Translations under genes and position numbers: made by a program
IMG/VR virus record: IMGVR_UViG_3300040811_000439
Span: 1 to 64,000 of that record
From: a virus
DNA: 64,000 nt
Direction: 5' to 3' (one strand)
Shown here: positions 29,337-48,036 of the stretch, piece after piece
How positions within the stretch are numbered: position 1 is the stretch's first letter
Layout of the letters: each line of letters starts with the position of its first letter
Notes under the pieces: model-generated
Databases searched by the model: none
Told to the model about the DNA's origin: nothing
Seen by the model: the letters and a program-made list of their open reading frames with translations, nothing else

Positions 29337-29793
29337 TTTGTGCTAACCTTAACTGCTCTTGCATTTCTAGCCGATCCTTATAAGGTCCTTTGTATTCATT
29401 GCGTCCAAGTGTAATTAGCTTTGGACAGTAACTTTTTACCCACCCGTGATCGAACTTGATAATGTAGTATCCTGCACAATAAAAACTCTGACTCTTAGGT
29501 GTCTTGGTATATAGAGGTAGTTTACGCTTTACATCGAAGATGTCATTATGTGGCTCACTCTTACAAGGATACCCGTGCACATCATGTTCACGTTTAGGTT
29601 CTTCTGTCACTTCTACCAAGTTACCAAAACTAATTTTGGTCTTTTCAGTTAGTGTAGCTTCATCTGGAAAACGTGCGTTCTTGTTTTCTACTGTAAGCAC
29701 AAAGTCTTTATCACGTCGAAGTGTGCCAACCTTTTGGCCATTCTTTTCAACGATCCAAAACTTGTTTGGTACAATAGGTTTAGCCTGTAACAT
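29323..29793 (-). CDS. Hypothetical protein (156 aa)
   Basis: AGGA five bases upstream supports ATG 29793 (MLQAKPIVPNKFWIVEKNGQ); longer readings lie inside the exonuclease gene. The N-terminal half is beta-rich (KVGTLRRDKDFVLTVENKN); then come VEVTEEPKREHDVHGYPC and FYCAGYYIIKFDHGWVKSYC. Many marine T4-like phages carry a similar protein next to the exonuclease, but its function is not known to me. It overlaps the exonuclease gene by 14 bases. Confidence 0.6.
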   Translation of the reverse strand: MLQAKPIVPNKFWIVEKNGQKVGTLRRDKDFVLTVENKNARFPDEATLTEKTKISFGNLVEVTEEPKREHDVHGYPCKSEPHNDIFDVKRKLPLYTKTPKSQSFYCAGYYIIKFDHGWVKSYCPKLITLGRNEYKGPYKDRLEMQEQLRLAQNESS

Positions 29794-30778
29794 GATATCC
29801 TTTTTGTAACCACTCTGCATATTTTGTAGCATCTTCAGCAATCCTATTCAGTTCATATTTGCCGCAGAACTTGAGGAATTTAGCACCAACCATCTTGTTA
29901 GTCTTAGTATCCATTTGTCCACGCATACTTGTATCAATGTACTCTTTAAGTTCTGCAGGCTGTGCAGTAAGATCAATCAGTGTGCGATTGCGCTCATAAT
30001 CATCTAGTACACGATGCTCTTCGCCATTGTGATCTGTCCAACGCTGTAGCATCATGTTATTCCAGTTGTAGCCTTTGCTATCACGATCTTCAAATGCTTC
30101 TAGCAAACCAACCTTGTTCTTAGTGCCTTTCTTGCGTACACCAGGATAAGCACTGAACACATTGTCTGTGCTATCACCACGCATACATTTCTCAAACAGT
30201 AACCATTCAGGATTGGGTGTTTCTTTAAGCTCACCTGTTTTTTTGTCCTTTACAGGCTTGCCGTAATCATCAAACACGCCTTCTAATGAGATCATTTGAT
30301 TCTGTATGCCGTTGTACTGTTTTACATTGTCGCTAACCAGTTGAACAAAATCGCTGTCACTGCTAACGATAACATGGTCGTCACCAGGGTGCATATCAAT
30401 CCAACGTGCAATAATATCGTCAGCTTCCGCAATTTCGCATCTAAGGACGCTACAGTTTGAATTATCTTTGAGGAATGTTGTAAGTTCATCATAGGTCTCC
30501 CAGAACAGTTTGTCTTCTTCCTGTTCTTTTTCAGTTAGTGCATCTCGGGCAACCTTACGGTTCTTCTTGTAAGGCTCGTAATAGTCCTTGCGCCAACTCC
30601 TACCCTCGAGTGCAAATACCACATGATCTGCACCTGCGATGCGCCATGCTTTGTTAACTGCACTCATAGTTACATGCATAGCAAAACCCAAGCGGGTCCA
30701 CTGATCCATGCCACGGTGAGCAACGTGTCGTGCTCTAAAAAACGTGTTCGCTGTATCTACCAGCAGATATGTAGTCAT
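29780..30778 (-). CDS. 5'-3' exonuclease / T4 RNase H-like FEN nuclease (332 aa)
   Basis: This is a flap/5'-nuclease that would remove RNA primers from Okazaki fragments. LLVDTANTFFRARHV holds the first metal-binding Asp, and VFALEGRSWRKDYYEPYKKNRK the helical-arch Lys/Arg. CEIAEADDIIARWI and DHVIVSSDSDFVQLV are the acidic metal-binding motifs; MRGDSTDNVFSAYPGVRKKG is the H3TH DNA-binding loop. Length and order match T4 rnh-type proteins. An internal promoter precedes it. Confidence 0.85.
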   Translation of the reverse strand: MTTYLLVDTANTFFRARHVAHRGMDQWTRLGFAMHVTMSAVNKAWRIAGADHVVFALEGRSWRKDYYEPYKKNRKVARDALTEKEQEEDKLFWETYDELTTFLKDNSNCSVLRCEIAEADDIIARWIDMHPGDDHVIVSSDSDFVQLVSDNVKQYNGIQNQMISLEGVFDDYGKPVKDKKTGELKETPNPEWLLFEKCMRGDSTDNVFSAYPGVRKKGTKNKVGLLEAFEDRDSKGYNWNNMMLQRWTDHNGEEHRVLDDYERNRTLIDLTAQPAELKEYIDTSMRGQMDTKTNKMVGAKFLKFCGKYELNRIAEDATKYAEWLQKGYHVTG

Positions 30779-32661: not shown

Positions 32662-33525
32662 TCAGGTTCCCCAGGCGTTACCGAAGACGTCGACGTGGAG
32701 GCGTGGGCTATATCTGTAGCCTTTTTCGAGGGCGAGCTCTGCGACTTGACGACCGTTTTTGAAGTAACTGTCTGTCGTACCGCCAACAGGCATGAGGTAA
32801 ACCGGCGCTTCAAGTCCCGCAGATCTATATTCTGCAACAGCTCTATCAACTTCTGCCACATCAACATCATCAGAAACAACGAACTTAAGATACAAGTGGC
32901 TGTTAGGAACACTAGCGTACTTAACAGCAACATCAGGCTTGATAGCATCAACCCAAGTATGTCCACTAACCGATAGTTTAGGGGAGCAAGAGAATGTAAT
33001 GTGTACCTGTTGATTATCTGTGAGGTACGTTTTGAAATCCTCTGACAGAGATTGTGTAGTATTGGTTTCGAACGTGACATTCTTCAAGTCCTTCATGCGT
33101 GGATGTTCTAGCAACTGTATATATGCTCGTTGCCAACCTAATAGAGGCTCACCGCCTGTGATTACCAAATGGATATCCTGACCATTATCCAATGACCATG
33201 CGCCTGTTGGTGTAAGTGCAAGTAGATCATCAACTAGCTGATCAATGTCTACATCATGTTGAAAACGTTTGAATGCAGGGTGCCAAGCAGCATAGCTATC
33301 GCACCCTACAGTCACAAGTGGGAGATCCTCAAGTGTATCATAGTTATCAATCTCATCTACAATCTTTTGGATCTGAGGCTCTGCTGTTTCGTCACTGTTC
33401 CTAGCAATACCAAACTTAGGACAAGTAAAGTTACAACCATACATACGAAGGAATACACTAGGCACACCTGTCCAGCGACCTTCTCCTTGAACTGAATAAA
33501 ACGCTTCAGTATATCTTACTTTCAT
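32662..33525 (-). CDS. queE: 7-carboxy-7-deazaguanine synthase QueE (287 aa)
   Basis: A radical SAM enzyme that contracts 6-carboxytetrahydropterin to 7-carboxy-7-deazaguanine. YSVQGEGRWTGVPSVFLRMYGC is the QueE N-terminus, VITGGEPLLGW the SAM-binding GGEP motif, and LHVDVFGNAWGT the usual ending. The cluster motif is unusual: GCNFTC is not followed by the normal WCD; the matching GCDSYAAW comes 39 residues later, giving CX3CX39C. QueD is two genes upstream; FolE and YhhQ lie near 41-42 kb. Confidence 0.88.
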   Translation of the reverse strand: MKVRYTEAFYSVQGEGRWTGVPSVFLRMYGCNFTCPKFGIARNSDETAEPQIQKIVDEIDNYDTLEDLPLVTVGCDSYAAWHPAFKRFQHDVDIDQLVDDLLALTPTGAWSLDNGQDIHLVITGGEPLLGWQRAYIQLLEHPRMKDLKNVTFETNTTQSLSEDFKTYLTDNQQVHITFSCSPKLSVSGHTWVDAIKPDVAVKYASVPNSHLYLKFVVSDDVDVAEVDRAVAEYRSAGLEAPVYLMPVGGTTDSYFKNGRQVAELALEKGYRYSPRLHVDVFGNAWGT

Positions 33526-33534
33526 TGACGCCTC

Positions 33535-33723
33535 TTAGTCTACAACTATGTGGGTTTTTAGTGTATCAATCATCTTAGCCTTTGTAAGACGACGATCGAG
33601 GTTGATACCATGATCTGCTGCCCAGTCATCGATTTCCTTCTTTGTCATCTTGTTAAGCTCAGCTTCTGTAATAACAGCAGGTGTGTCTCCAACTCCTAGC
33701 CATTTCATAATGCATTTAAACAT
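33535..33723 (-). CDS. HeH/LEM/SAP-like small protein (62 aa)
   Basis: GGAG before ATG 33723 supports this start, within the last codons of queD. The C-terminal 40 residues (MTKKEIDDWAADHGINLDRR, then LTKAKMIDTLKTHI) form a helix-extended-helix motif of the HeH/Rho-N/LEM type, common in phage proteins that bind nucleic acid. Located between queD and queE, so co-expressed with them; no enzymatic role is evident. Confidence 0.6.
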   Translation of the reverse strand: MFKCIMKWLGVGDTPAVITEAELNKMTKKEIDDWAADHGINLDRRLTKAKMIDTLKTHIVVD

Positions 33724-34189
33724 CAAATTCTCCATCTTCTCTGTGACCAACTCGCATAGCCATATTTGAGTCAGTTTCTCTTACCTCAACCTTACAGCAC
33801 CATACCCTAGTGCCAGGTTCCCAACTAGGTAAAAATATTGTGTTTACGTATTCATACAAAAAGTCTGATAGACCTTCACATCCAGTCTTTTCAACTTCTG
33901 TAATCTTTGCTAGGCCTTTTTTGCCTAGTTCTAGTAGCATGTCGCGGTCTGGATCATCCTGTGCTACTAGCAGAGTGTGATCAAACCAGTCTTCTAAGCT
34001 GTCCTTTAGTGGACGTAATCCACCGAAGTCTACTACCCAGTTACGAGCATCTAGGTCATCAGTTTCAAATTCAAAATGGAAACTTAATGCGTATCCGTGG
34101 ATAAGATTGCAGTGTGAATCTGCTCTCCACTGTCTGTATGCTACTGGACCTAAATGCCTGTATGTTTTTGTACTAATATATTTTGCCAT
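33716..34189 (-). CDS. queD: 6-carboxy-tetrahydropterin synthase QueD (157 aa)
   Basis: Converts dihydroneopterin triphosphate to 6-carboxytetrahydropterin. The zinc ligands are in SHCNLIHGYALSFHF (His and HGY where most have HGH), the DFG element is VVDFGGLRPL, the catalytic His region is FDHTLLV, and the substrate-anchoring Glu is in VEVRETDSNMAM. The size is within the family range. It starts a unit with the HeH-like gene and queE, under a good promoter and a structured leader. Confidence 0.88.
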   Translation of the reverse strand: MAKYISTKTYRHLGPVAYRQWRADSHCNLIHGYALSFHFEFETDDLDARNWVVDFGGLRPLKDSLEDWFDHTLLVAQDDPDRDMLLELGKKGLAKITEVEKTGCEGLSDFLYEYVNTIFLPSWEPGTRVWCCKVEVRETDSNMAMRVGHREDGEFDV

Positions 34190-34859: not shown

Positions 34860-35211
34860 AACTCCAAATAGCAACATATGTTAACATATGTAATAGTTGA
34901 TCAAAACCAAACAATATCCAATACTGCGGATGTGCTGTTGTTAGTTTCATAATACGCGATACTAGTTCTTTACAATAATCAATAGTGTAGTGTACGGCGA
35001 AATCAGCTAACCCAACAAATAGAGCAAAAGGCCAACCAATAAAATAATAACAAATAACAAATGTAAAGACACCGTGTATAGCTGCATGGATCAGTCCACC
35101 TAGACCAAATAGTTTACTTTTTGCCTGGATCATCCACGGAGTTTGTAAACAGAAGTCGCCGAGCCAATGCTTAACTAGCAGTGCTATTAAGAGTTCAATC
35201 ATCACCACCAC
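34840..35211 (-). CDS. DUF3307-type membrane protein (123 aa)
   Basis: An integral membrane protein. LLIALLVKHWLGDFCLQTPWM at the N-terminus, LIHAAIHGVFTFVICYYF, and ALFVGLADFAVHYTIDYCKE fit the DUF3307 family (HxxxDFxLQ, H-A-x-x-H, and D-x-x-x-H-Y-x-x-D patterns). The function of the family is unknown to me. It overlaps the phosphoribosyltransferase gene by 10 bases. Confidence 0.7.
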   Translation of the reverse strand: MVVMIELLIALLVKHWLGDFCLQTPWMIQAKSKLFGLGGLIHAAIHGVFTFVICYYFIGWPFALFVGLADFAVHYTIDYCKELVSRIMKLTTAHPQYWILFGFDQLLHMLTYVAIWSYARGLI

Positions 35212-35714
35212 TCCTCATAGGGGAATACGACCCATGTATCTTCTTCAGCTTTGTTAATTTCAATGCTTGTATAATCGATGTTAAATGGACTTGCTAGATT
35301 GTTTACGATAGTTGCAAAGCGAACATTCTGATTCCAAACTTTATCCCATCGGTGTTCATTTGGATGACAGCCTGCCGGCCAATCTTCTTTAATCCATTGG
35401 AATGTAGCACCACTATCGTTAATATCGTCTAGGATAAGAAATTTCTTATCTTCATATGTGCCACCCATTTGGAAAATACCAAATGCATCTTCTGCCATCC
35501 AACAGTTAGATTCTTGTTCATCGCCATCACGCAAACGAACATCCAGTGTGTGCATTTTAATACCTGTAAGATGACTCATTAGAACAGCAGGAATTAATCC
35601 ACCTCTGGTAATACCTACAATATAATCGGGCCGCCAGTTGTCGGCATACATTTGCTTTATAACGTTATGTACACCCTTTTCAATATCTCGATTAGACAGA
35701 TATAGTTTGTTCAT
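35202..35714 (-). CDS. Phosphoribosyltransferase-like protein (170 aa)
   Basis: KFLILDDINDSGATFQWI is the PRPP-binding loop (hydrophobic strand, DD, x, x, D, S/T-G) of type I phosphoribosyltransferases. YIVGITRGGLIPAVLMSHLTG is the preceding pyrophosphate loop. The closest type is hypoxanthine/xanthine-guanine transferase, so it may salvage purine bases, or possibly a deazapurine given the queuosine-type genes near it; the latter is only an inference. Confidence 0.8.
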   Translation of the reverse strand: MNKLYLSNRDIEKGVHNVIKQMYADNWRPDYIVGITRGGLIPAVLMSHLTGIKMHTLDVRLRDGDEQESNCWMAEDAFGIFQMGGTYEDKKFLILDDINDSGATFQWIKEDWPAGCHPNEHRWDKVWNQNVRFATIVNNLASPFNIDYTSIEINKAEEDTWVVFPYEEWW

Positions 35715-35937: not shown

Positions 35938-36352
35938 CTCTTACCTTCTGCTTTCGCCATTCAAAATACTTTTCATTGTGCATCCATTTACCGTTGACAA
36001 TGAAACCCCACTCACGTAGTTTAGGACCAGGAATGAATAGTGACCAAGCACATACTCCTGGTTCTAGTTCTACACGATGCAGACTCTTAGGACCGCTAAA
36101 ACGCATGTGTCCTGGACCACGCCAGAAACGTCCTTTAGGAGTAGTCTCCCAATAACCTCCACGTAAGATTAGCGTGAAGTAGGGCCAGGGATGATCGTGT
36201 AGTTCATCCGGATCGCTTTGTAAAAACTTGTGTAAGAATACGTTAAATGGAAACCATTTACGATCTTTTAGAAACAAGTAATACCTAACCAAGTAGGGCT
36301 TCTGCCCAATGCGATCTAGGATTACACGTTTCCTATCTTTGAACATATTCAT
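35897..36352 (-). CDS. Cupin-fold protein (151 aa)
   Basis: HDHPWPYFTLILRGGYWE is a cupin motif 1 (HxHP....G..E), and later GPKSLHRVELEPGVCAWSLF provides the second His strand. The N-terminus KPYLVRYYLFLKDRKWFPFN is basic and aromatic. The gene overlaps the preceding GNAT-like gene (ATGA). Cupins bind metal and catalyse or bind sugars and other small molecules; the substrate here is unknown. Confidence 0.7.
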   Translation of the reverse strand: MNMFKDRKRVILDRIGQKPYLVRYYLFLKDRKWFPFNVFLHKFLQSDPDELHDHPWPYFTLILRGGYWETTPKGRFWRGPGHMRFSGPKSLHRVELEPGVCAWSLFIPGPKLREWGFIVNGKWMHNEKYFEWRKQKVRDERFRNSATTGSC

Positions 36353-36807
36353 AAACTGTATTCGTAGTTATCAGTTGCAGTATTGTTCTGCAAAGTAACT
36401 GCTCCATTGTTTAAGTGAAACCTACGTGCCATATCCGTTTTTGGACTTAGTGTAATAAGACGTTTGACTTTATGATTTGCACGACATTCATCTAGCAACC
36501 GAAAAACAACGTCTCTGCCAGCACGTGGCGCACGACTCCAAACTGTATATGCTACGCAAATAGAACCGTGTTGATCTTCCTGACAAGCAGCCTGACTCAT
36601 AAGGTCAAGTTCCTTTACAGTAGTTGGTACTTCATTAGTATAGGCAACGCAAATTGCTGCCTGATACTTACCGTCCGTTTCCAACACATAAACCCGACGA
36701 CCCGGGCCCAACCTAAAATTAAGGTCAAGCTCGGGTCTCACGGGGTCGTGGTTGGTATCAAACTGTAGTGCTTCTACATTTTCATATGTCAGCGTAGTTA
36801 GGTTCAA
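36349..36807 (-). CDS. GNAT-like acetyltransferase (152 aa)
   Basis: The C-terminal half has the order of a GNAT fold: a strand AYTVWSRAPRAGRDVVFRLL with the R-x-x-G-type pyrophosphate contact, a helix, KRLITLSPKTDMARRFHLNNGA as the later strand and helix, and an aromatic end. The family transfers acetyl from acetyl-CoA to amines. The assignment rests on fold pattern. It is the first gene after the autotransporter's downstream end (36820) and has RBS AAGGAG. Confidence 0.55.
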   Translation of the reverse strand: MNLTTLTYENVEALQFDTNHDPVRPELDLNFRLGPGRRVYVLETDGKYQAAICVAYTNEVPTTVKELDLMSQAACQEDQHGSICVAYTVWSRAPRAGRDVVFRLLDECRANHKVKRLITLSPKTDMARRFHLNNGAVTLQNNTATDNYEYSL

Positions 36808-36819
36808 TACCTTTTCTCC

Positions 36820-39800
36820 TTAGAACTTCAAGTTCACTTTCATGCCTAGGTTAACTTCATTGTTACCTGAGACACCTGCAACATTGCTACGATGCTCTGC
36901 ATAGCCAGCAAGTGCAACATTGTTTACATTATATTTTACAAACAAACCGGTATCATATTCAATATTTTTCGTACTTGCATCAGCACTTCCTTCATTAAAT
37001 AATACCTGTCCGTCAAGTGTACGTCCTACTGGAACCTTGTAGTTCATCTTACCGCTTGTAACTGTCATTGGCTGACTAAAGTTAGCGCCAACAGTCCAAC
37101 CATTGCTAAACTTGTAACCTGCACCAACACCCCAACTGTTACTTACTAGGGTGCTGTACCCAGTTACTAGACTAAACTCCTTGGATGACTCAACGTCTGT
37201 CATGCCCAACTGGAAGTTACCAAACCCAAACCAGTTCTCATCAAACTTGTGATTGAGACGCAAGCCTGCATAGTTTGTGGTGTGTGACTCACCAACTCCC
37301 ATAAAGCCTTCCTGAACGTTGTTAAGGAACTTACCTGTCTCCTTAATCATACCAAGTGCGGCAGTAATAGTAGTTTCTTCGCTACTATGTACATCATACT
37401 CTGTACGCATGCCCCAGTCGCCATTGGCTTTGGCATCTGGGTCAAATTTGAATGATGTCCTAATACCAAACAAGTCACTAGTGCCTTCGCCGGCATTAGC
37501 AAGATTCCAATAACCGTCATAGTTTGCACCAAAACTTAGTGCTTCTGTTGACGATCCAGGACGAGTATCAATAGCTTGAGTGTTGTTTAGATTGATTGTA
37601 AAATCACGCTCAAAGCTATCAAGCACCGTAACATTACTTAGTGCCGCAAATGCATCGCTACTAATACTTCCGACAGCAGCGCCGCCACTTAGCGTTTCAA
37701 GGCTAGCAATAGCACCACTCGTACGCCCGCTTGTTGGAATACCTGTTGCACCTACAGGCTGTGTAGCCTTGTCCAAGTCCAACATGCCTTGTCCATGTGT
37801 GTGTTTAGCATAGTCAGGCAAGTCCTTGTCTGCTGTTGTTAGCAACAGTTTAACAAGGTTCTCACCCTTCATGTGAGGCCACATCTGATGTACAATAGCA
37901 AGTGCACCAGTTACAACAGGCGCTGCCATACTAGTACCACTCATTGTTACAGTTGTGCCATCCTTGTACGCACTTTCGATACTACTACCTGGTGCAAGGA
38001 TATAAAAGTCACTTGCCTTGGCAGCATCTTTACAGAGATTATTTGTAAAGTCCCAGGTAGCACAAACAGTACCAGCCTTGTTACTGTAACTAGCAATCTT
38101 ATTGTTAGCAAGATCATATGAGCCAACGATTAGCATACGTCCGCCCATAATAAGGTTGCCATTAGAATCTGTAGCATGGGCCATCTGACCAGTACCTGAT
38201 ACATAGTCTTTAGCAAAGTTACCAGCACTGTTCACAAGGATCTGTTCGCTACCTAGTGCAGTTGCCCACAACTTGGCTTCGTCTACAGCACCATTGTATC
38301 CATTCTCACCGTAGTACCAGTGATTACTATACTGGACACCAGTAGTACCTGTTGGAGTTAGACTTCCCTTAAAGGCAGTATCTTCTGCAAAGTTAGCACT
38401 GGCGTTAAAAGCAATACTTCCTAAGTCTCGTGCCCATGTTGCACCTACTCGTGCACGTTGGAAACTGTAGCCAGTGCTGTCACTTACTTTTACGACAGCA
38501 ACGTCTGCATCAAATGCAACACCGTGTGTACCGCTACCGTTCTTACGTCCAGCCGCAATACCCAACACATGACTACCGTGACCAACGTTGTCATCCATAA
38601 ACGTCGCATCATTTGTTAGAGTGTTGAACTCATGTTTAACTGCACCAGCAAGGTCTGAGTGATCCTTATCGTAACCAGTATCAGCAATAGTAATTAGACT
38701 GCCTTTACCAGTCCAACCACGGGAGTATGCAACGTCTGCGTTAATTGCCTGCTTGTAGTTCTGACCAGAAGTTCCATTGAACTCTGAAGTACGATAGCTT
38801 ACAGGATTGCTGTTGAACCCTGCGGTACGTGTGCCCATGTCAGGATGATCGTCTGCAATAGGTGTACTATCAGCAGGAGCATCCTCTGTTGTGGTGCTCA
38901 TAACCTTAGTCCAACTATCTGTCACTACAGTATTTTCAGTACTAGTTTCAACTACAGTTTCACCGCGAATTAGTTTCTCAGTACCATCAGTCCAAATCTG
39001 TTTTGTCACAGGAGTTGTGTTTGTGGTAGTTGTAGTAACAATAGTAGCAGTGGTCGTGTAATAACGTGTTACAGTAGTAATTAATTTACCGTCTACAGTT
39101 TCACTAGTTGTCTTGTCTTCATAGGTTGTATCAAATACTGGATCAGCTTCTGTTACGTCTGTAATAACTTCGTTTGTAACGGTTTCACTCGCTACAACAT
39201 GCTCTGTAGTACTTTCTACAGTTGCTTCACTTGTATTGACAACAACTTCATCTTCTGTACTACTAACCACTTCATCTGTAGCATCATGAGTAAATGAATG
39301 TCCATCTGTGTAAGTGTACACACTAATCTTAGGATATGTTAGTGTAGTAGTGACAGGCGTAGTGCTTGTGGTTGTAGTAGTACGAATGGTGTTATGTACC
39401 TTACTACCATCTTCCTGTGTAATAGTATCGACACGATCCGCATACTCGTTTACCACAACCGTTCCGCCACGAGTGACAGTTGTAGTTGGATCGTTTTGTT
39501 CTTCAACTGTATAGGCAATGTTCTGTGACATGTCCTGTGTAGTAACAATGTCAGCAGCCGAAAGTGTCTGTGTATAAGGTACTTCACGGATTTCACCACG
39601 TTCAGTTTTTGTGCTACCATCGCTGTAAACATATGTGGTTACATTCTGTAGGACCACTGTCCAACTACGATCATACTCCATCTTCTTTGTAGTTGTCTTT
39701 ACCCAAGTAGCGGTACGTGTTAGATCAGAGATGCTAGAACCGCCGGTTACAGTCTGCTCGCCATCGACTACAACAGTTTCCTTAACACGATCAGTACTTG

Positions 39801-40368
39801 TAGTAGCACTTGATTCACTTACTGTAACGCTACTGTTGCTTGCACTAATAACTGTTGGCGTAGTACTCTCAAAGATCGACTTAGATTCAGCTGCAATAAC
39901 ACGGTCCAAATCTTCCTTCTTTTCTAGGAACTTAAATTTATCTGTGTCATACCCTTTGCCATTGGTAACATCAACGACCATTGGACGAAGCTGATTCTTA
40001 AGGATCTTTACTACTGCTTCTGCTTTACGGAAGTCTTCTGATTCTAACTTAGCACGAAGTAGCATAGGATTCATACCTGCCTTATGCTCTTCCCAACTAG
40101 CAATTACATTGTCAATCTTGCTGACAATGTCTCCTGCCATAATTTTATCTGATTCAGTTGGATTAATTAGTGCACTAAGAGTTGCTGAACTTTGTGCAGC
40201 AGCAACTACATTCTCAAGGTCAGCAATCTGTCCACTGATAGCTGCAAAACTTGAATTTGTTGCGAACGAACGCTTTACTGTGTTTACTGCGGAACTTCCG
40301 CCGCCACCTTGACACGCTGTAAGCATTGTGGTGGCTAGCAACGCTCCTGCTAGTGTCTTATAAGTCAT
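36820..40368 (-). CDS. Subtilase (S8) autotransporter lipoprotein (1182 aa)
   Basis: The signal MTYKTLAGALLATTMLTACQ has a lipobox (LTAC, Cys19). Residues ~185-480 are a Thr-rich stalk with three degenerate repeats of ~105 residues. The subtilisin domain shows Asp563 (ITIADTGYD), His597 (VGHGSHVLG), oxyanion Asn717 (LVNSAGNF) and Ser813 (MSGTSMAAP). From about 900 to the terminal Phe the sequence alternates as an autotransporter beta-barrel. It would be exported, inserted in the outer membrane, and its protease displayed. No frameshift; it is by far the largest gene. Autotransporters are bacterial genes, so transfer from a host is likely. Confidence 0.88.
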   Translation of the reverse strand: MTYKTLAGALLATTMLTACQGGGGSSAVNTVKRSFATNSSFAAISGQIADLENVVAAAQSSATLSALINPTESDKIMAGDIVSKIDNVIASWEEHKAGMNPMLLRAKLESEDFRKAEAVVKILKNQLRPMVVDVTNGKGYDTDKFKFLEKKEDLDRVIAAESKSIFESTTPTVISASNSSVTVSESSATTSTDRVKETVVVDGEQTVTGGSSISDLTRTATWVKTTTKKMEYDRSWTVVLQNVTTYVYSDGSTKTERGEIREVPYTQTLSAADIVTTQDMSQNIAYTVEEQNDPTTTVTRGGTVVVNEYADRVDTITQEDGSKVHNTIRTTTTTSTTPVTTTLTYPKISVYTYTDGHSFTHDATDEVVSSTEDEVVVNTSEATVESTTEHVVASETVTNEVITDVTEADPVFDTTYEDKTTSETVDGKLITTVTRYYTTTATIVTTTTTNTTPVTKQIWTDGTEKLIRGETVVETSTENTVVTDSWTKVMSTTTEDAPADSTPIADDHPDMGTRTAGFNSNPVSYRTSEFNGTSGQNYKQAINADVAYSRGWTGKGSLITIADTGYDKDHSDLAGAVKHEFNTLTNDATFMDDNVGHGSHVLGIAAGRKNGSGTHGVAFDADVAVVKVSDSTGYSFQRARVGATWARDLGSIAFNASANFAEDTAFKGSLTPTGTTGVQYSNHWYYGENGYNGAVDEAKLWATALGSEQILVNSAGNFAKDYVSGTGQMAHATDSNGNLIMGGRMLIVGSYDLANNKIASYSNKAGTVCATWDFTNNLCKDAAKASDFYILAPGSSIESAYKDGTTVTMSGTSMAAPVVTGALAIVHQMWPHMKGENLVKLLLTTADKDLPDYAKHTHGQGMLDLDKATQPVGATGIPTSGRTSGAIASLETLSGGAAVGSISSDAFAALSNVTVLDSFERDFTINLNNTQAIDTRPGSSTEALSFGANYDGYWNLANAGEGTSDLFGIRTSFKFDPDAKANGDWGMRTEYDVHSSEETTITAALGMIKETGKFLNNVQEGFMGVGESHTTNYAGLRLNHKFDENWFGFGNFQLGMTDVESSKEFSLVTGYSTLVSNSWGVGAGYKFSNGWTVGANFSQPMTVTSGKMNYKVPVGRTLDGQVLFNEGSADASTKNIEYDTGLFVKYNVNNVALAGYAEHRSNVAGVSGNNEVNLGMKVNLKF

Positions 40369-40393: not shown

Positions 40394-40450
40394 AAGAGCA
40401 TGTTCACCTTGAACATACTCTTATAATAACACAGCGTCTAGACTTGTCTA
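40394..40450 (-). promoter_or_regulatory. Promoter with inverted repeat at the transcription start of the autotransporter
   Basis: TAGACA (40445-40450) and TATTAT (40423-40428) on the minus strand are 16 bases apart. An inverted repeat, AAGAGCATGTTC-ACCTT-GAACATACTCTT (40394-40422, one wobble pair), starts right after the -10 box and would cover the start site. It may act as an operator or as a stable 5' hairpin. Confidence 0.55.
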
Positions 40451-40463
40451 CCGTTTTTAGAAA

Positions 40464-40721
40464 CTATATAGCGTTAAGTAATTCCCAGGCTTTGTAATGG
40501 CGTTCTAACTCTGCAAACTCTTCCCATTTTTCTTTTAATTCTGGATACTTGTCCATCATATCAAGTCTTTGTTGCAGATATTCCTCAAGAGGATCAGTTG
40601 GAGGAGTTATGGTCACCGTTGAGGTCGAGCCCCCCATTGTAATAGTACTTGAAATAGGATCGCCTATTTCTCTTGCACGTATAGTAATACCACCGTCTGG
40701 TGATTCATATATTTTTGGCAT
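40464..40721 (-). CDS. Hypothetical protein (85 aa)
   Basis: Begins MPKIYESPDGGITIRAREIG, with a PLEEYLQQRLDMMDKYPELKEKWEEF helical end that may form a coiled coil. AAAGGA is upstream. No recognised domain, though similar short proteins are common in marine phage genomes. It is isolated between a terminator (upstream) and the autotransporter promoter. Confidence 0.55.
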   Translation of the reverse strand: MPKIYESPDGGITIRAREIGDPISSTITMGGSTSTVTITPPTDPLEEYLQQRLDMMDKYPELKEKWEEFAELERHYKAWELLNAI

Positions 40722-40738: not shown

Positions 40739-40770
40739 AAAACGGAGGGCCCAACACGGACCCTCCGTTT
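40739..40770 (-). terminator. Rho-independent terminator after yhhQ
   Basis: AAACGGAGGG (40740-40749) and CCCTCCGTTT (40761-40770) form a perfect 10-bp stem with an 11-base loop. On the minus strand it is followed by TTTT, and it lies 14 bases past the end of yhhQ. It ends the folE-yhhQ transcript. A run of A on the other side lets it work in both directions. Confidence 0.8.
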
Positions 40771-40783
40771 CATAGCGTTATTG

Positions 40784-41407
40784 TTATAGAGTACGCCCTA
40801 GTTTCTTACGCAAATAGCTTAGTAGGAAACCATATGCTGGTAGGAACACAATCAACCCTACAATAATCTTTGTAATTGTCTGGTTGAACGCAACAGCATG
40901 TACCCAAGGTGCTGGATAAAATGCTGTATAGAAGAACGCATAAGTGTCTAGTACGTTTGCACAGACTGTTGAAAATGCTGGAGCAGCCCACCACATCTCT
41001 GTGAACTTCTCACGAATATGCTGGAATACATAAACGTCTAGCATTGTACCAACGCCATATGCAACACCCGAAGCTGCACCAATACGTAGTGCCTTCTCAA
41101 CTGGTGCGCCGCCGCCCCACACAACCAAAATACTTACAATGATTGCTGGGATGACTGCTAGGGCAACAACTGCCCTACCTGCTTCCTTGCCCACCATACG
41201 GACGGTCAAGTCAGTGGCAACAACTACAATTGGAAATGTAAATGCTGCAACTGCAAGTGGAAACTCACCAAAGAATGGCAAGTTAGCACCTGGGAACAGG
41301 TTAAACTTGAACTGCACCAAGTAATTTGAAAGTGCAATTACGATTACGTGCATGATAACAAGCTGATTAACCAACTTGCGATCTACACCTTCTAGTAACT
41401 TCAACAT
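40784..41407 (-). CDS. yhhQ: Queuosine precursor transporter YhhQ, VUT family (207 aa)
   Basis: Imports preQ0-type 7-deazapurine bases across the inner membrane. About six hydrophobic segments are seen, with AFTFPIVVVATDLTVRMVGK, GTMLDVYVFQHIREKF, WWAAPAFSTVCANVLDTYAFFYTAFY and IIVGLIVFLPAYG, matching the family pattern (ATDLTVR, LDVxVF, DTxAFF, FLPxYG). GGGAG before ATG 41407 decides the start over one at 41437 that overlaps folE. Pairing with FolE in one operon ties it to deazaguanine metabolism. Confidence 0.88.
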   Translation of the reverse strand: MLKLLEGVDRKLVNQLVIMHVIVIALSNYLVQFKFNLFPGANLPFFGEFPLAVAAFTFPIVVVATDLTVRMVGKEAGRAVVALAVIPAIIVSILVVWGGGAPVEKALRIGAASGVAYGVGTMLDVYVFQHIREKFTEMWWAAPAFSTVCANVLDTYAFFYTAFYPAPWVHAVAFNQTITKIIVGLIVFLPAYGFLLSYLRKKLGRTL

Positions 41408-41429
41408 ATGTTTCTCCCTATTCTGAAGT

Positions 41430-42104
41430 TTACCCATGACCCTTCATGCTTAGACAGATGTTATAAAACTCCTGCTTAACACTAGGCTCATCTAGGAAAG
41501 CACCTTGCAAGACCGCTGTTGTCATATCCGACTCGTGCTCTTTTACACCGCGGTGCGTCATACAATGATGCTCTGCTTTGACTACAACAGCAACGTGCTC
41601 TGTTTTTGCATATTCTTTAAGAGCTTCTGTAATCTGTGTAGTCATTTCTTCCTGTATCTGCGGGCGTTCCGCAATGTGATGAATGATACGATTGAACTTA
41701 CTTAGTCCAATTACTTCATCCTCAGGAATGATGCCTACCCAACATTTACCAACAATGTTCTGAAAATGATGGGCACAGGTACTACGAATACTAATAGGAC
41801 CACTAGTGTACATACTTTTGTAGCCCATGTTAGGAAATGCTGTAACCTTTGGCATCGGTTGATAGCGTCCGCCAAATGTTTCATTGATATACATTTTAGC
41901 TACACGCTTGGCAGTTTCTTGTGTGTTATGATCGTTTTCGGTATCAATAACTAGTGCGTCAAGAACTGCTTTGAACTTTTCTTCTACTTCAGTTTGAAGT
42001 AGTGCTAGTTCACCTTCGTGGATGAACTCGCTAATATTATCGTTAGAATGGAAACGTGCATTTGTCTGCTGAATACGTTCCCTGATTGTTTGTGATATTG
42101 TCAT
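41430..42104 (-). CDS. folE: GTP cyclohydrolase I, FolE (224 aa)
   Basis: Opens GTP to dihydroneopterin triphosphate, the first step towards folate and 7-deazaguanine. GPISIRSTCAHHFQNIVGKC supplies the zinc Cys and His, GIIPEDEVIGLSKFNRIIHH the central motif, and VVVKAEHHCMTHRGVKEHES the second Cys with His. The N-terminal ~75 residues vary as usual. GGAG lies five bases before the ATG. The promoter at 42141-42169 precedes it and yhhQ follows. Confidence 0.92.
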   Translation of the reverse strand: MTISQTIRERIQQTNARFHSNDNISEFIHEGELALLQTEVEEKFKAVLDALVIDTENDHNTQETAKRVAKMYINETFGGRYQPMPKVTAFPNMGYKSMYTSGPISIRSTCAHHFQNIVGKCWVGIIPEDEVIGLSKFNRIIHHIAERPQIQEEMTTQITEALKEYAKTEHVAVVVKAEHHCMTHRGVKEHESDMTTAVLQGAFLDEPSVKQEFYNICLSMKGHG

Positions 42105-42140: not shown

Positions 42141-42169
42141 ATTTTATACATATTTAGGTTAGGTGTCAA
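42141..42169 (-). promoter_or_regulatory. Near-consensus promoter of folE-yhhQ
   Basis: TTGACA (42164-42169) and TAAAAT (42141-42146) on the minus strand, 17 bases apart; the -35 box is within the last codons of the upstream DegT-like gene. Start codon about 37 bases downstream. Confidence 0.7.
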
Positions 42170-42758
42170 TTTGTATTTTACTACAGTCTGGATAAGTTTT
42201 AAGTTGGCTTTGCAAATTTGGCATCTCTTCCTGATGTGACAACATATCTATACCTTTTGCTGCATCTTCTAGTCGCATATTGTAATGAAATCCTAGACGC
42301 CAATAAGTTTGATTCTCCCAAGGAGAAGTATCTAGCGTTCTGCCATCATACGCCATGCGCTTTAACTGGAAGTAATCGCTCCTACTATCAAGTAGAATAG
42401 CACCACCATGACCAATAGCCAACCGCTTGTCCCAACCGAAACTTAGGCACTGCATACGACCGCTGATATACATATTTTCATCAAATGCTCTAGCACTATC
42501 CCAAATATTAGTAGGAGCAATACGATATTCATAATCCCATGCATAGTCCTTGTCCCAATAAAGTTCTAGTCCTAGCTTATGCATTGTCATTGGTATGCTA
42601 ATATAAGTACGAGCAGGAAGTATCACAGGCCCTTTAGGATGATTTAGTCGAAGACAAAGTTCAATAGCATGAGTGCAACTATCTGTTAAAACCACATGCG
42701 GCGCACCAGTATATACACTTAGGACATGTTCAAACTTATCTAAGATTTTATAGTCCAT
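42159..42758 (-). CDS. Short DegT/DnrJ-family PLP protein (199 aa)
   Basis: TDSCTHAIELCLRLN, ILPARTYISIPMTMHKLG, IWDSARAF and CLSFGWDKRLAIGHGGAIL, with the Schiff-base Lys, are the large-domain motifs of DegT/StrS aminotransferases. The gene ends ~150 residues earlier than full-length members: the C-terminal small domain is missing, although DAAKGIDML, the usual adjoining stretch, is kept. It is either degenerate or a minimal enzyme. A fuller paralog is at 19417-20409. Confidence 0.7.
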   Translation of the reverse strand: MDYKILDKFEHVLSVYTGAPHVVLTDSCTHAIELCLRLNHPKGPVILPARTYISIPMTMHKLGLELYWDKDYAWDYEYRIAPTNIWDSARAFDENMYISGRMQCLSFGWDKRLAIGHGGAILLDSRSDYFQLKRMAYDGRTLDTSPWENQTYWRLGFHYNMRLEDAAKGIDMLSHQEEMPNLQSQLKTYPDCSKIQIDT

Positions 42759-43933
42759 TATAAACCTGTATCACTTGCAATATCTATAACACTAATTTTA
42801 CTTGCTGCTTCTTTTGCAATATCTAAACTAGGTGCTAGTACAACTGCCATTCTACGATATGGTCTAGTCGTGGGCTTTCCAAACACTCTAACATCGACGT
42901 CTGGTATTTTAAGTGCATCGTTAATACCGCTTATAACAAACTCATGCGTAGTTTCATGAGCTAGTACAACATGACTCGCACCTGGACGGACTAATTTGAT
43001 CTCACCAATTGGTAAGCCTAGTATAGCCCTTGCATGCAAGTCAAACTCACTTAGGTTCTGTGTAAACATGGTTACCATACCGGTATCGTGTGGGCGAGGA
43101 CTTAGTTCGCTGAAGATAACTTCAGGACTATTACCTTTGGTCTTAACAAAAAATTCTACACCAAAAATACCTGCGCCACCTAAATCATCTGTAATGATTT
43201 TTGCCATCTCTTGTGCGTGAGTCTCGATAATGTGTCCTGTAAAAGTTTGTTCTAGTGCAGGTTGCCAACTGTACTGATAGTCTCCACGCTCTTGATAGTG
43301 ACCAATTAGTGGACAAAATAGTGTAGGTCCATTATGTTGCTTTACAGTGAGCAGTGTAAGCTCTAGATCAAAATCAATAAACTCTTCTACAATAACACGC
43401 TGCCTGTCTCCACGCATACCTGATACTGCATATTTCCATGCAGCATCTACGTCACGTTCTTCGTTAACTACGCTCTGTCCCTTGCCACTTGAGCTCATCA
43501 CAGGCTTTACCACACAAGGAAAACCAATGCGTCTACAAGCACTCTGTAATGTTTCTAAGTCCTCAGCATATTCGAATTTTGCTGTACGCAACCCAAGTTC
43601 AACTGCACGATCTCTAATGCGATCTCTGTTCATTGTTAGGTTAGTTGCTCTTGCTGTAGGGACAACAGTATAACCCTGTGCTTCCTTTTCAAGTAAGACT
43701 TCTGTACGAATTGCCTCAACTTCGGGTACAATAAGATCAGGTTTATAAGTATCAATTACTCTGCCTAGCATCTCGCCGTCTAGCATATCAAAAACTTGAT
43801 GTCCATCGGCTACCTGCATTGCCGGCGCACCTAAATAGCTATCACATGCTACAACATGGCAACCCAGTCTTTTTGCACTAATGGTAAACTCCTTACCGAG
43901 CTCACCGCTACCTAATAATAATATACGTTTCAT
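42758..43933 (-). CDS. purT: Phosphoribosylglycinamide formyltransferase 2, PurT (391 aa)
   Basis: Formate-dependent GAR transformylase, an ATP-grasp enzyme of purine synthesis. [20 protein letters not shown] is the N-terminal nucleotide fold, [16 protein letters not shown] the ATP loop, [11 protein letters not shown] and [15 protein letters not shown] the metal-binding strand and active site, and [20 protein letters not shown]-like [20 protein letters not shown] the C-terminus. Length is normal. A complete purT in a phage is unusual; it could supply purines or act on a related substrate. Confidence 0.88.
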
Positions 43934-44454
43934 TATTTGTGTCCTGTTATTTGCAATGTATATCGTTTGGTTAGTCCTAAGTTAGCGGCCATATGTTCTG
44001 TGTCGCCTTTCCAGTAAACATAGTCGCCCTTTTTCCAATTTACTTTTCCGAATCCATCTATCTCAAAGTAATGCCCACTCTGCCAATCCTCAAGGAATAC
44101 GACAATACGTTCGCAATCGTTTACTTTTAAATCAAACAACTCACAATACTTTGCATAGGTATCCTTATGGCAAGGTAGTATTACACCTGTACCCATTCTA
44201 TAATAACTTGTGCCTATGTCTTTAAGACCAAATTGATCCTCTGCCCATTGTATGATCTTGTTATTCCAACTTGGTTGAGGGCTACGCATGTCACATAGGA
44301 AGCCTGTGTAATGACTTTCAGGATGTACATATCCTTGTCTTTTCCACTCGACTAAATCGTGCCTATTGTTAAAAGATTCTAATTTATAGGACAAACTTTT
44401 ATATTCATCATCCCAAAAAGGATCAATGTGGCTATGCAATACGGGTGTTGCCAT
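43933..44454 (-). CDS. 2OG-Fe(II) oxygenase / Asp-Asn hydroxylase-like protein (173 aa)
   Basis: [14 protein letters not shown] has H-x-D, and [19 protein letters not shown] the distal His and Arg, in the order of double-stranded beta-helix oxygenases; [20 protein letters not shown] is the strand between. Compared with larger oxygenases it is compact. Its place between purT and a UGD-like gene suggests a role in sugar or surface modification, but the substrate is unknown. Overlaps the next gene by 23 bases. Confidence 0.65.
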
Positions 44455-45649
44455 AATGGATCACTTTATACCTAGTGTCTGAAAAACTACGCCAAGGATC
44501 AACAATAACGCTGTCCTCATAGAGTTCACAGTACAAGTTGTTAGATTGTTGATTGTTCATATAGTTATAGGTTACACTTGGGTTGTGAGCAAGTAAAACT
44601 ACTGCACTATAGGGACCAGGATCTGGATGTGTCAGAGGATCAATAATCATAGGATGAAAACCCCGCTCGCTACAGTAATGTGCAACCAAACTACTGTAGC
44701 TACCTTCCGTATAAGGAACATCTGGCTTGTATGCATAGCCGTGTATGAGTACAGGTAGTTCATGTTCTTTGGATAAATCACATAAGAAGTTTGCAAGATT
44801 ACGTGCTTGTACTTCTCTACTGTTCATAATAGCATGGAATAGATCGTATTCTAAATTTAATTCTTTAGCCATGTAACGTAGTGCAATGTTATCGCGTGGA
44901 TGACAAGGACCACCATCTCCCATGCCCGCTGTCATATACTTTGGAGCCATAATACGTTGAGTGCTGTTAGCAAGAGCATCTGTAACTACATCAACATTCA
45001 TGTTACCCAGTTTCATAGCAACGTCTTGGATCATGTTTACAAGGCTGAGCTTTGCACTGATAAATGTGTTATAGAATATCTTAATACTTTCTGCTTCTTC
45101 CCATGTTCCTACACTATAGCGAGGATTGTTCTGCATAAGTTCTTTGTAGAAGTTAATAAGCAGGTTTGCATCACCTGTTTCACTACCATCCTCTGTACCA
45201 ATGATAACCATTTCTGGATTGACCATATCCCATGCTACACTGCCCATTGCAATTAGATATGGGTTATAGATAAAACGTGCTTGTGTAATCAAAGGTGCAA
45301 GTTCTCTGCGAACAGTGCCAGGTAGCACTGTACTAATAAGAACTATAAGGGTATGTTCATTTGCATACTCGTTAACTTCAGTTAAACACTGCTTTACTTG
45401 GTCATAGTTAAAGTCCTGAGGCTCATAATCCATACAAGGCATGCTACCATCATACTGTGGATGATGTGGCGTTTGAATAGCAACAAAAACTAGATCTTTA
45501 TTTTCTACTGCATCTTTTACATCTGTGACAACTTTTATATTATCACTAGCACGGTCTTCAATATCAAACCCCGTAACTGAGTATTTTACAGCCATTGCTT
45601 CTGCACAAGGCAGACCTAGCTTTCCTAATCCAATAAATCCTACTTTCAT
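44432..45649 (-). CDS. UDP-glucose/GDP-mannose 6-dehydrogenase family protein (405 aa)
   Basis: KVGFIGLGKLGLPCAEAMA is the NAD-binding fold, ISTVLPGTVRREL and IYNPYLIAMGS typical family stretches, and GDGGPCHPRDNIAL the catalytic Cys motif (GGxCxPxD). The family makes nucleotide-sugar uronic acids with 2 NAD. VLIHGYAYKPDVPYTEGS is the C-terminal domain motif. Its neighbours, an epimerase and a glycosyltransferase, fit a nucleotide-sugar pathway. The exact sugar cannot be read. Confidence 0.85.
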   Translation of the reverse strand: MKVGFIGLGKLGLPCAEAMAVKYSVTGFDIEDRASDNIKVVTDVKDAVENKDLVFVAIQTPHHPQYDGSMPCMDYEPQDFNYDQVKQCLTEVNEYANEHTLIVLISTVLPGTVRRELAPLITQARFIYNPYLIAMGSVAWDMVNPEMVIIGTEDGSETGDANLLINFYKELMQNNPRYSVGTWEEAESIKIFYNTFISAKLSLVNMIQDVAMKLGNMNVDVVTDALANSTQRIMAPKYMTAGMGDGGPCHPRDNIALRYMAKELNLEYDLFHAIMNSREVQARNLANFLCDLSKEHELPVLIHGYAYKPDVPYTEGSYSSLVAHYCSERGFHPMIIDPLTHPDPGPYSAVVLLAHNPSVTYNYMNNQQSNNLYCELYEDSVIVDPWRSFSDTRYKVIHYGNTRIA

Positions 45650-46476
45650 AGTTCCTCCAATAACTTTTTAATACCTACTTGAACACTAATCCTAGGATGG
45701 TAACCAAGTTCTGTTCTAGCCTTTTGAATGTCAAGTGCGCCACGTTTAGGGTAGTCGTAATCACGTTGACTGATAGTATAACTGCCAGTGCCAACCAGTG
45801 TGCAGATATATTCTGCAATAATATCCAGTGCGTGACTTTGACTGTAACTAACGTTATAGATTTGATTCTTACTTTTTCTTTCGATCATCAAACGTACTGC
45901 TTGAACAACATCACTTACACTTGTAAAGTCTAAACAGTTATCATGTCCTTTTACTTCAATTACTCCGCCTTCTTTGGCAGTACGAATAAAAGTAGGCAGT
46001 ACACGATTAGGATCATCGCCTTCTCCATACACTGCGGTTGGACGTACGATAGTCCAGTTATTGTGTAACTCTTTGACTAGTCCTTCACCAACTAGTTTTA
46101 GTCTACCATATAAGTCAATGGGAGAAGGATTTTCGTATTCGTATTTGTTTGCTAGGTTACTGTCCCAATTACCATAAACCATGCTACTGCTAAAGTAGAT
46201 AAAATGACTGTTGTTGAACTTTGTTAGGCAGTTGATAAGCCCTGTTGTCATAGTATGAGTAGCTTCTACAGGACTACGCTTTACTGCTGCAAGATTAGGT
46301 TCTGCTGCAAGGAACAACACACAATCATAATCTGGACTTATAAGATTAAGATGGTTATGATTGTTTATGTTAGTACCAAACTTTTTATCAATAACAACTA
46401 CATTGTTATCTTGTTCCAGTTCACGTTCAAGGTGCTTACCAATAAATCCAGCACCGCCTATGAGAAGTATGTTCAT
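45646..46476 (-). CDS. NAD-dependent epimerase/dehydratase (276 aa)
   Basis: Extended short-chain dehydrogenase: ILLIGGAGFIGKHLEREL is the GxxGxxG nucleotide-binding motif, IYFSSSMVYGNW provides the catalytic Ser region, and IDLYGRLKLVGEGLV the YxxxK pair. TIVRPTAVYGEGDDP is the substrate-binding stretch. It would epimerise or dehydrate a nucleotide sugar, feeding the glycosyltransferase next to it. Overlaps both neighbours by 4 bases. Confidence 0.85.
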   Translation of the reverse strand: MNILLIGGAGFIGKHLERELEQDNNVVVIDKKFGTNINNHNHLNLISPDYDCVLFLAAEPNLAAVKRSPVEATHTMTTGLINCLTKFNNSHFIYFSSSMVYGNWDSNLANKYEYENPSPIDLYGRLKLVGEGLVKELHNNWTIVRPTAVYGEGDDPNRVLPTFIRTAKEGGVIEVKGHDNCLDFTSVSDVVQAVRLMIERKSKNQIYNVSYSQSHALDIIAEYICTLVGTGSYTISQRDYDYPKRGALDIQKARTELGYHPRISVQVGIKKLLEEL

Positions 46477-47519
46477 CTATTCTTTATTGCTTCGTAAATT
46501 AGTTTACCACTAAAGAAGTTATCTGTTAACTTCCTAGTTTGTGTTAGCATTGCATTACGATATTTTTCGTAATTAATCATGTAATCGTGGATTGTTTCAA
46601 TAACACTAGATTTGTGTTCCTGATATTTATCCCAACTTTCTGTCCACTCACTAGGATACTTAAATTCATCGATAGCCATTTCACTGTAACTTAGACGATC
46701 GGGAATCATTGGAATGGTATCAACTAGCAAACCTTCATACCAACTAATACCAAGTGTTTCTTGTAGATTAGCACTAAACACTAACTTGGCTGTACCTAGT
46801 GCATTATGGTAATCATTTTTAGTATAGCCCTGCTCCATACACACGATCCATTCATACTCTGGCATACTGTCTGCAAGGTCACGGAATATCTCAGGCTGCT
46901 TTTCAGGTGCAATACGATGTGGGAAAAGAATAGTATTGGTCTTTTGCATATGTTTGTATGGAAGCATTTGATCCGCTTCATACTCCATAGGCCAACCAAC
47001 ACGCTTTGTTTTTGCTAGATCAATCTTTAGACTTTCAGCAAACAGATCAATATGAAACTGTGATGCATAAAAGTTGTCATCAAAGCATTCATACATGCTC
47101 TGCTCAGCATGTCTTACCCAAGGCTTATCTCCTATAAGACGCCCAAGGAAGTCAGCAGGATCATAACTGCCAGCATGCCATAAACCGCCAATACGAACGT
47201 CAACCCCCAGTAGTTCAGCCATATAGCGAAGTTGGATAACAGTAGGGTTCCAAGCATCTGTATAAAGGAAATAGTCGCCGTTATGCACTTGCCCTCGGCA
47301 AAACATCTCAGCAATCTGTTCAAGTTGATTACTCTTATAAACATTTGTTCCACCAAAGTTTAGAAACGCACCTGGAGTAGTAGCCTGCGGCACATCCCCT
47401 CCGCTGATAACAACCACTTCGTCATTTGTAGCTCGACGTAGTTGTTTAGGAAGATGTTCCTTCCATTCGCTAGTATAACGTGTTTCAACTGCTTCTAAGT
47501 CTACAATGTATACTGTCAT
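46473..47519 (-). CDS. GT-B glycosyltransferase, family 4-like (348 aa)
   Basis: The C-terminal half has the donor-binding pattern of GT4 enzymes: TILFPHRIAPEKQPEIFRDL, then WIVCMEQG, SANLQETLGISWYEGLLVDTIPMIP with the E-x-x-x-x-x-x-E region, and FKYPSEW. The N-terminal half is a second Rossmann-like domain (GLWHAGSYDP). It would transfer a sugar from a nucleotide donor made by its neighbours. Overlaps both flanking genes. Confidence 0.75.
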   Translation of the reverse strand: MTVYIVDLEAVETRYTSEWKEHLPKQLRRATNDEVVVISGGDVPQATTPGAFLNFGGTNVYKSNQLEQIAEMFCRGQVHNGDYFLYTDAWNPTVIQLRYMAELLGVDVRIGGLWHAGSYDPADFLGRLIGDKPWVRHAEQSMYECFDDNFYASQFHIDLFAESLKIDLAKTKRVGWPMEYEADQMLPYKHMQKTNTILFPHRIAPEKQPEIFRDLADSMPEYEWIVCMEQGYTKNDYHNALGTAKLVFSANLQETLGISWYEGLLVDTIPMIPDRLSYSEMAIDEFKYPSEWTESWDKYQEHKSSVIETIHDYMINYEKYRNAMLTQTRKLTDNFFSGKLIYEAIKNR

Positions 47520-47821
47520 AGGTCTCTACTTTCGTAGGTTTGTTTTAATGGTATTAACAGTTTATACTCTTCTTTTGCAAACTGCAAGTTAATAAGATAG
47601 GATTCAGTTCCATGCTTCCAGTCATGTCCAAATCCTTCCCACCACCAATCTTGATTATAAACAAGTCCGTGTTGTCCTAGTACATTTGAAATATGACAAA
47701 GAGCATCAACGGGTGTGTATCCAGCATTGAGAGCGCCGCCCTCCATTGGAAGATTGTTACGTCTGTCTGTCCAGCCGTTGTGTTTTACACACACCCGATG
47801 ATTAAACTTTTGTTCATACAT
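47516..47821 (-). CDS. Hypothetical protein (101 aa)
   Basis: Begins MYEQKFNHRVCVKHNGWTDR, with GLVYNQDWWWEGFGHDWKHG and a helical YLINLQFAKEEYKLL end. Aromatic-rich and compact. No family is recognised. It starts at the last base of the upstream gene and overlaps the glycosyltransferase by 4 bases. Confidence 0.55.
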   Translation of the reverse strand: MYEQKFNHRVCVKHNGWTDRRNNLPMEGGALNAGYTPVDALCHISNVLGQHGLVYNQDWWWEGFGHDWKHGTESYLINLQFAKEEYKLLIPLKQTYESRDL

Positions 47822-48036
47822 TATCTGTTAGGGCCAAAAATCCTTGCTCCTGTAAGTTTAGCATCGCGGATCCAATTGTTGCTGATTCGCTTGCCTCCCT
47901 TAAAGGCAGTGTACTCGTTGTACACTGGGCTCTTGTTGTTATATAGATCAGCCTCATTATAAGGATGACCAAATACAGTGCAGAAACGCTTGTAGTCGTC
48001 TAGGTCGTCAAATACCTTTTGCACTTCGTTTTTCAT
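47821..48036 (-). CDS. Hypothetical small protein (71 aa)
   Basis: A small basic protein starting MKNEVQKVFDDLDDYKRFCT, with YNEYTAFKGGKRISNNWIRD and an Arg/Lys-rich end. No recognisable domain. Its ATG abuts the stop of the gene upstream. Confidence 0.55.
   Translation of the reverse strand: MKNEVQKVFDDLDDYKRFCTVFGHPYNEADLYNNKSPVYNEYTAFKGGKRISNNWIRDAKLTGARIFGPNR

Follow-up and report, generated by a model that had tools for sequence, protein, structure and literature searches.

In the usual layout of a subtilase autotransporter, the protease is followed by a beta-helix of about 200 residues (PMC9289746). Two described members act at the cell surface: lipidated NalP of Neisseria meningitidis sheds surface proteins, for which its lipid anchor is required (PMC9289746), and SphB1 of Bordetella pertussis matures filamentous haemagglutinin at the surface (PMC9977779). 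Both combine a lipobox signal, an S8 protease, and a C-terminal outer-membrane barrel. The same combination is predicted for the product of a gene at positions 36820-40368 (minus strand) of a 64,000-nucleotide stretch of viral DNA, positions 1 to 64,000 of IMG/VR record IMGVR_UViG_3300040811_000439, which is here called the window. Subtilase autotransporters are known, but a phage carrier is unexpected. The phage protein further differs from NalP and SphB1 in having an extra helical and threonine-rich region of about 500 residues ahead of the protease, and its protease adjoins a barrel linker of about 60 residues, with no beta-helix of about 200 residues between them. The closest match in the PDB to its protease region, Ssp of Serratia marcescens (PDB 8e7f), itself has a beta-helix (PMC9977779). 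The NCBIfam model for EprS of Pseudomonas aeruginosa also matched at 4e-20, but with 71 of 1700 bits it fell far under its cut-off.

An earlier note on this DNA had described a complete autotransporter gene with an intact lipobox and a terminal phenylalanine. The gene, identified by its open reading frame (ORF) and by Pfam, is intact, with an ATG start at 40368, a stop at 36820, and 1182 codons. The description required one correction, as to strand: the gene is encoded on the minus strand, and the plus strand across 36820-40368 is not open and contains many stops. The 1182-amino-acid product begins with MTYKTLAGALLATTMLTAC, followed by QGGGGSS, and the signal peptide with its lipobox (residues 1-19; 40312-40368, minus) is of the lipoprotein type. 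It was called from the sequence and from a count of LxxC motifs in relatives. The lipobox, LTAC, occupies residues 16-19, ends at Cys19, and is identical in close relatives. By eye and by hydropathy, the window protein and the relatives inspected have a Sec-type signal with a basic N-terminal end, a hydrophobic core, and a cleavage or lipobox site.

Behind the signal lies a helical region (residues 20-170; 39859-40311, minus), in which AlphaFold places helices with a predicted local distance difference test score (pLDDT) of about 60 to 79 over most of the length. It is followed by an acidic, threonine-rich, stalk-like region defined by composition (residues 171-510; 38839-39858, minus), with 88 threonines in 340 residues and a net charge of -32. 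Model confidence in this region is low (pLDDT mostly below 50 for residues 287-516), and its length differs between relatives. A lineage of 671-amino-acid proteins is without the entire N-terminal region, which indicates that the signal, the protease, and the barrel are the essential parts. What looked like an ALAC lipobox in that lineage was judged to belong to an ordinary signal peptide and was not counted. The S8 subtilase domain (residues 541-870; 37759-38748, minus) is joined by a linker containing a conserved GIPTSGR segment (residues 871-930; 37579-37758, minus) to a predicted C-terminal outer-membrane beta-barrel (residues 931-1182; 36823-37578, minus). In the full-length AlphaFold model, the protease is confident, the barrel moderate, and the stalk and linker poor, with pLDDT below 50 for residues 872-932. 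The protein closes with NLGMKVNLKF, so that the terminal phenylalanine is in place, consistent with an outer-membrane beta-signal.

The Pfam S8 profile, PF00082, covers residues 554-861 in full (4.8e-30). The proposed catalytic residues D563, H597, N717, and S813 are all present; D563 and H597 were placed exactly, and N717 and S813 correspond to invariant columns of the family. Conservation was read from an alignment of 84 sequences, comprising the window protein, 80 viral relatives, and 3 bacterial ones. Wherever a sequence reached the column, the catalytic residue was invariant (76/76 for D, 79/79 for H, 82/82 for N, and 83/83 for S). Two cysteines of the domain, C769 and C779, are kept in all 80 viral members that reach them, and this invariant pair would fit a disulfide in an exported protein that passes through the oxidising periplasm. 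The whole model matched the subtilisin fold with a target-normalised template modelling (TM) score of up to 0.87, and its top PDB match, by fold and by sequence, was the subtilase-autotransporter passenger of Ssp. Across the whole gene, the ratio of nonsynonymous to synonymous divergence (dN/dS) was 0.13 to 0.24 between the window and eight relatives of 43 to 96% identity. A degenerate or dead enzyme was considered and rejected: the motif failures in one relative (L031) are D-T-Y for D-T-G and G-S-S for G-T-S, and the catalytic residues are intact. Since the identical domain order recurs among relatives, the catalytic residues are fully conserved, and dN/dS is low, the gene is real and its occurrence is more than chance. 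Membership in the S8 family is indicated by residues and fold alike, and the predicted architecture of a phage subtilase autotransporter is well supported.

The barrel was assigned from a barrel-only model, from Foldseek, and from the beta-signal-like motif at the C terminus. The model, built by AlphaFold from the linker and barrel with 32 sequences, had a mean pLDDT of 83, a predicted TM score of 0.79, and 12 to 13 barrel strands. When it was compared with the PDB by Foldseek, OmpG ranked first and the NalP translocator third (E value of 5e-4, TM-score of 0.35 to 0.39), with EspP and BrkA lower in the list; TM-scores to outer-membrane barrels ranged from 0.25 to 0.40. In a viral structure library, the top match was A0A6J5TBB6, a 689-amino-acid "Peptidase S8/S53 domain containing protein" of an uncultured Caudovirales phage (E value of 3e-15, TM-score of 0.72). 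A beta-signal-like C terminus is present in 55 of 81 viral members, and F or Y is still the last residue in most others. One side lineage (L076, L096, and L107-L109) has a tail of about 50 to 80 residues past the barrel, ending in YDLEKDMFVPIEE or similar, which is unusual because a barrel normally closes the protein.

A profile of the barrel also matched bacterial genomes, namely 68 of 385 in the class of an alphaproteobacterial metagenome-assembled genome (MAG) and 18 of 369 in that of a gammaproteobacterial MAG. Most of the top-scoring bacterial barrel proteins that were read contain S8 motifs. In twelve of these bacterial genomes, PF03797, the Pfam Autotransporter domain, matches elsewhere than the related barrels, indicating that PF03797 misses the barrel family in bacteria too. 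This group of barrel-bearing proteases has gone unrecognised, being missed by the standard autotransporter profile.

The gene is phage-borne and conserved. The earlier note had placed it in a phage genome, which holds for the carrier, whereas the source record is a virus fragment of 72,888 bases and not a whole genome. The DNA polymerase of the window is nearest to those of Sinorhizobium phage Phosso (469 kb; 51%) and Agrobacterium phage Atu_ph07 (490 kb), and its other nearest relatives are from jumbo myoviruses, the sizes spanning 350 to 490 kb. A single-sequence scan of IMG/VR gave 34 distinct loci, and a scan with a 22-sequence profile gave 110 stretches encoding relatives, 80 of which were kept; the search for homologues in related phages that the note had called for thus returned viral relatives with an unchanged catalytic site, on about a hundred other contigs of uncultivated phages. 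TerL is encoded by 6 of 20 carrier contigs tested and the T4-type capsid protein Gp23 by 6 of 18, with five encoding both; several carriers are 200 to 335 kb long and encode TerL and a T4-like Gp23. The complete protein recurs at 100% identity, with the flanks on either side also shared, in an independent contig that comes from a different metagenome record (L002/L041).

Within this family, the export signal varies. An LxxC lipobox is carried by 38 of the 71 viral members of full length, in which the residue after the cysteine is never aspartate, and the other full-length members inspected have ordinary signal peptides. Comparison of the window gene with L047 gave a synonymous divergence (dS) of 0.05 across the barrel and 1.85 across the N-terminal region; recombination has probably exchanged segments within the gene and left it a mosaic. 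In a phylogenetic tree, all 58 distinct viral sequences and four bacterial ones fell into one group (Shimodaira-Hasegawa-like approximate likelihood ratio test [SH-aLRT] support of 99), and the remaining bacterial S8-barrel proteins fell outside it; some bacterial rows are long-branched, and the tree does not fix the direction or number of transfers. L037 and L038, which are rare cases of a bacterial MAG contig bearing a chromosomal relative of the phage group, were placed among the phage sequences. Cultured phages gave only weak matches, to the S8 domain alone. PHROG 3677, annotated as "protease," matches residues 291-903 (7.5e-29). Like the window protein, the members of PHROG 3677 and A0A6J5TBB6 are phage encoded; their annotation is automatic, and no description of them as autotransporters was found. 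Literature searches, which did not reach subscription papers, turned up no report of an S8 autotransporter from a phage. This agrees with the earlier note, which knew of no characterised phage autotransporter, although public databases do hold automatically annotated relatives.

A promoter of the gene's own, which the note had also proposed, was borne out as a conserved sigma70-type site. A sigma70-type extended -10 promoter, TAGACA-16-TATTAT with TG before the -10 element, is predicted from the sequence at 40423-40450 (minus). Equivalent sites scoring at least 9 of 12 lie just upstream in 18 of 19 divergent loci, compared with 2.7% expected per shuffled sequence; similar sigma70-type sites also occur elsewhere on the minus strand. 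The T4-type late motif TATAAATA was not found near the autotransporter gene. Because the sigma70-type promoter is conserved, the gene is probably expressed early and transcribed by a polymerase holoenzyme of the host type. A near-perfect 13-bp inverted repeat abuts the -10 element (40394-40422, minus). This is the operator-like repeat of the earlier note, and it exists, but it is limited to the closest relatives, which have the same or nearly the same sequence; it is different in L045, L049, L052, and L060 and missing in distant relatives. An operator and a 5' mRNA hairpin are both possible.

From the behaviour of the families to which its parts belong, we infer that the protein is very likely exported, displayed at the surface, and active as a protease. 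Expression from the gene's own sigma70-type promoter, probably early, would coincide with that of DNA-modification and replication genes. The product would leave the cytoplasm by the host Sec route and be lipidated at Cys19, and host BAM would insert the C-terminal barrel into the outer membrane. The protease would then fold and act outside the infected cell, tethered by its lipid and its threonine-rich stalk, and cut exposed loops or surface proteins in the manner of NalP and SphB1. Its substrate and benefit are guesses; the most likely benefit would be a remodelled cell surface from which receptors have been removed, preventing adsorption of superinfecting phages or sparing progeny from loss on debris. 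Receptor removal fits best because of the early expression, the tether, and the optional presence of the gene across related phages. In the main lineage, its neighbours are DNA-modification and replication genes and not virion genes, which we counted in favour of a surface protease. At its fixed locus the gene may be present or absent, a pattern that would be expected for a gene of host interaction: among 34 QueE-anchored loci that extend 5 kb or more upstream, 18 are without it, which rules it out as a core gene of the lineage. The L154 locus retains FolE, cupin, phosphoribosyltransferase, QueD, and QueE genes without the autotransporter, and in the cultured phage Phosso the FolE and QueE genes are separated by small unrelated genes, with no autotransporter among them. 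Since related phages hold the same module with and without the gene, a clean comparison is possible. For the statement as a whole, a phage surface protease that strips receptors or blocks superinfection, we estimate a probability of about 0.4.

Several points weigh against this statement. Unlike NalP and SphB1, the phage protein has no match to PF03797, neither in a scan of its own genome nor in Pfam, and the label "autotransporter" is therefore given by architecture and not by signature. The modelled barrel only weakly resembles solved autotransporter barrels, and about half of the relatives are without a lipobox. Furthermore, there are real rivals for the function, and the results do not separate superinfection exclusion from specific processing, from feeding on extracellular protein, or from roles directed at competitors.

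It is possible, if less probable, that the target of the same surface protease is one particular surface protein of host or phage, which it matures or sheds, or that it supplies amino acids by digesting extracellular protein close to the cell. NalP and SphB1 do process named surface proteins, the genome encodes many metabolic genes, the long N-terminal stalk could lengthen the enzyme's reach, and bacterial relatives exist outside phages. However, no adjacent partner substrate is encoded in all lineages, and a tethered enzyme scavenges poorly compared with a secreted one.

An improbable reading is that the protease, at the surface or released, acts on other cells or phages and harms competitors, predators, or competing virions. 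Release from the cell and action on foreign proteins are also described for subtilase autotransporters (PMC9289746), and some lineages are without the lipid anchor. The window lineage, in contrast, is lipid-tethered by prediction; no toxin-like accessory domain was found, and no contact-delivery system was seen nearby.

A role in lysis, by which the envelope would be weakened from outside and progeny release aided, or in the processing of virion proteins is also improbable. A spanin gene does lie some genes upstream in one side lineage (L107), but the adjoining promoter is of the sigma70 type with no T4-type late promoter, the main-lineage neighbours serve replication and modification, and the signal peptide removes the protein from virion assembly. 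A virion or tail-associated protease was likewise ruled out by the signal peptides and the replication-side neighbours. Finally, an assembly chimaera, for which the earlier note had wanted a check, or a mis-binned bacterial gene is virtually excluded: S8 proteins with related barrels do occur in many Proteobacteria, but many independent contigs share the gene junctions, one of them identical over the gene, several carriers encode TerL and Gp23, and the viral sequences stand apart from most bacterial ones in the tree.

Known means by which phages change the surface of their host include small blocking proteins, curli pores, and enzymes of lysogenic conversion. If the receptor-stripping proposal is true, a full-length and apparently active surface protease, retained across many jumbo-phage lineages, would extend these alterations to the enzymatic shaving of infected cells, and phage exclusion by proteolytic receptor removal would be a mechanism of a new kind. 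The T5 lipoprotein Llp, which excludes superinfection in complex with FhuA (title of PDB 8a60), binds the receptor, whereas the protease would be catalytic. The curli pore of pelagimyophages (CsgG/CsgF) is also placed by a phage at the host outer membrane, with other proteins and another mechanism (PMC7029224). It is rather unlikely that the locus represents an ancient line of outer-membrane subtilases, owned largely by phages, in which receptor removal by proteolytic shaving in jumbo phages is joined to a translocator family unseen by PF03797.

The autotransporter locus sits in a module of replication genes and genes predicted to serve preQ0/7-deazaguanine modification. In most carriers, the order is TGT-like, glycosyltransferase, FolE, sometimes a YhhQ-type transporter, autotransporter, phosphoribosyltransferase, QueD, QueE, and 5'-3' exonuclease. 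FolE, QueD, and QueE belong to the preQ0 pathway, which serves 7-deazaguanine DNA modification. In the window, all on the minus strand, an 85-amino-acid ORF that is a conserved neighbour in close relatives lies directly upstream of the autotransporter gene (40464-40721). It is followed by a Vut_1/YhhQ family transporter (40784-41437; PF02592, 5e-21) and a GTP cyclohydrolase, FolE (41430-42104; phrog_2197, 1e-55). Only some relatives have this transporter, which lies two genes upstream; its presence suggests that a queuosine precursor is taken up during infection. Between the YhhQ-like gene and the 85-amino-acid ORF, a G+C-rich hairpin followed by T's (40740-40770, minus) is terminator-like by eye; it was absent from the output of the consensus scan.

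On the other side of the autotransporter gene are, again on the minus strand, a phosphoribosyltransferase-domain gene (35202-35714; PF00156), a QueD-like gene of the 6-pyruvoyl tetrahydropterin synthase family (33716-34189; PF01242), a QueE-like radical SAM gene (32662-33525), which matches NCBIfam QueE models at 1e-11 and under their cut-offs, and a 5'-3' exonuclease gene at the conserved module end (29780-30778; PF02739, 4e-19). An acetyltransferase ("GNAT") label for 36349-36807 was made by eye only, and PHROGs gave no match. The gene also occurs in other settings, adjoining DNA helicase, primase, and DnaB genes in the L086-type side lineage and genes for an ATP-dependent protease and a cytidyltransferase in the L107-type side lineage, in which the spanin is some genes away.

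Farther upstream, positions 51416-52885 (minus) encode a 489-amino-acid protein with a GDSGGFQ motif that is TGT-like by eye, and its relatives in PA5oct-like Pseudomonas jumbo phages are annotated as "hypothetical protein." A firmer TGT or DpdA label was rejected, since no Pfam, NCBIfam, PADLOC, PDB, or PF01702 match was obtained; the product is a candidate divergent DNA transglycosylase. From the polymerase to the autotransporter, positions 42159-50542 (minus) contain UDP-glucose dehydrogenase, sugar-nucleotide dehydratase/epimerase-like, aminotransferase-like, ATP-grasp-like (by eye), glycosyltransferase, and dehydrogenase genes, which possibly serve surface-sugar or DNA hypermodification. 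On the plus strand, several adjacent ORFs occupy 7872-15843, three of them with radical SAM matches in PHROGs, and a Nol-like carbamoyltransferase gene follows at 15941-17467, giving what looks like a sugar/peptide modification cluster.

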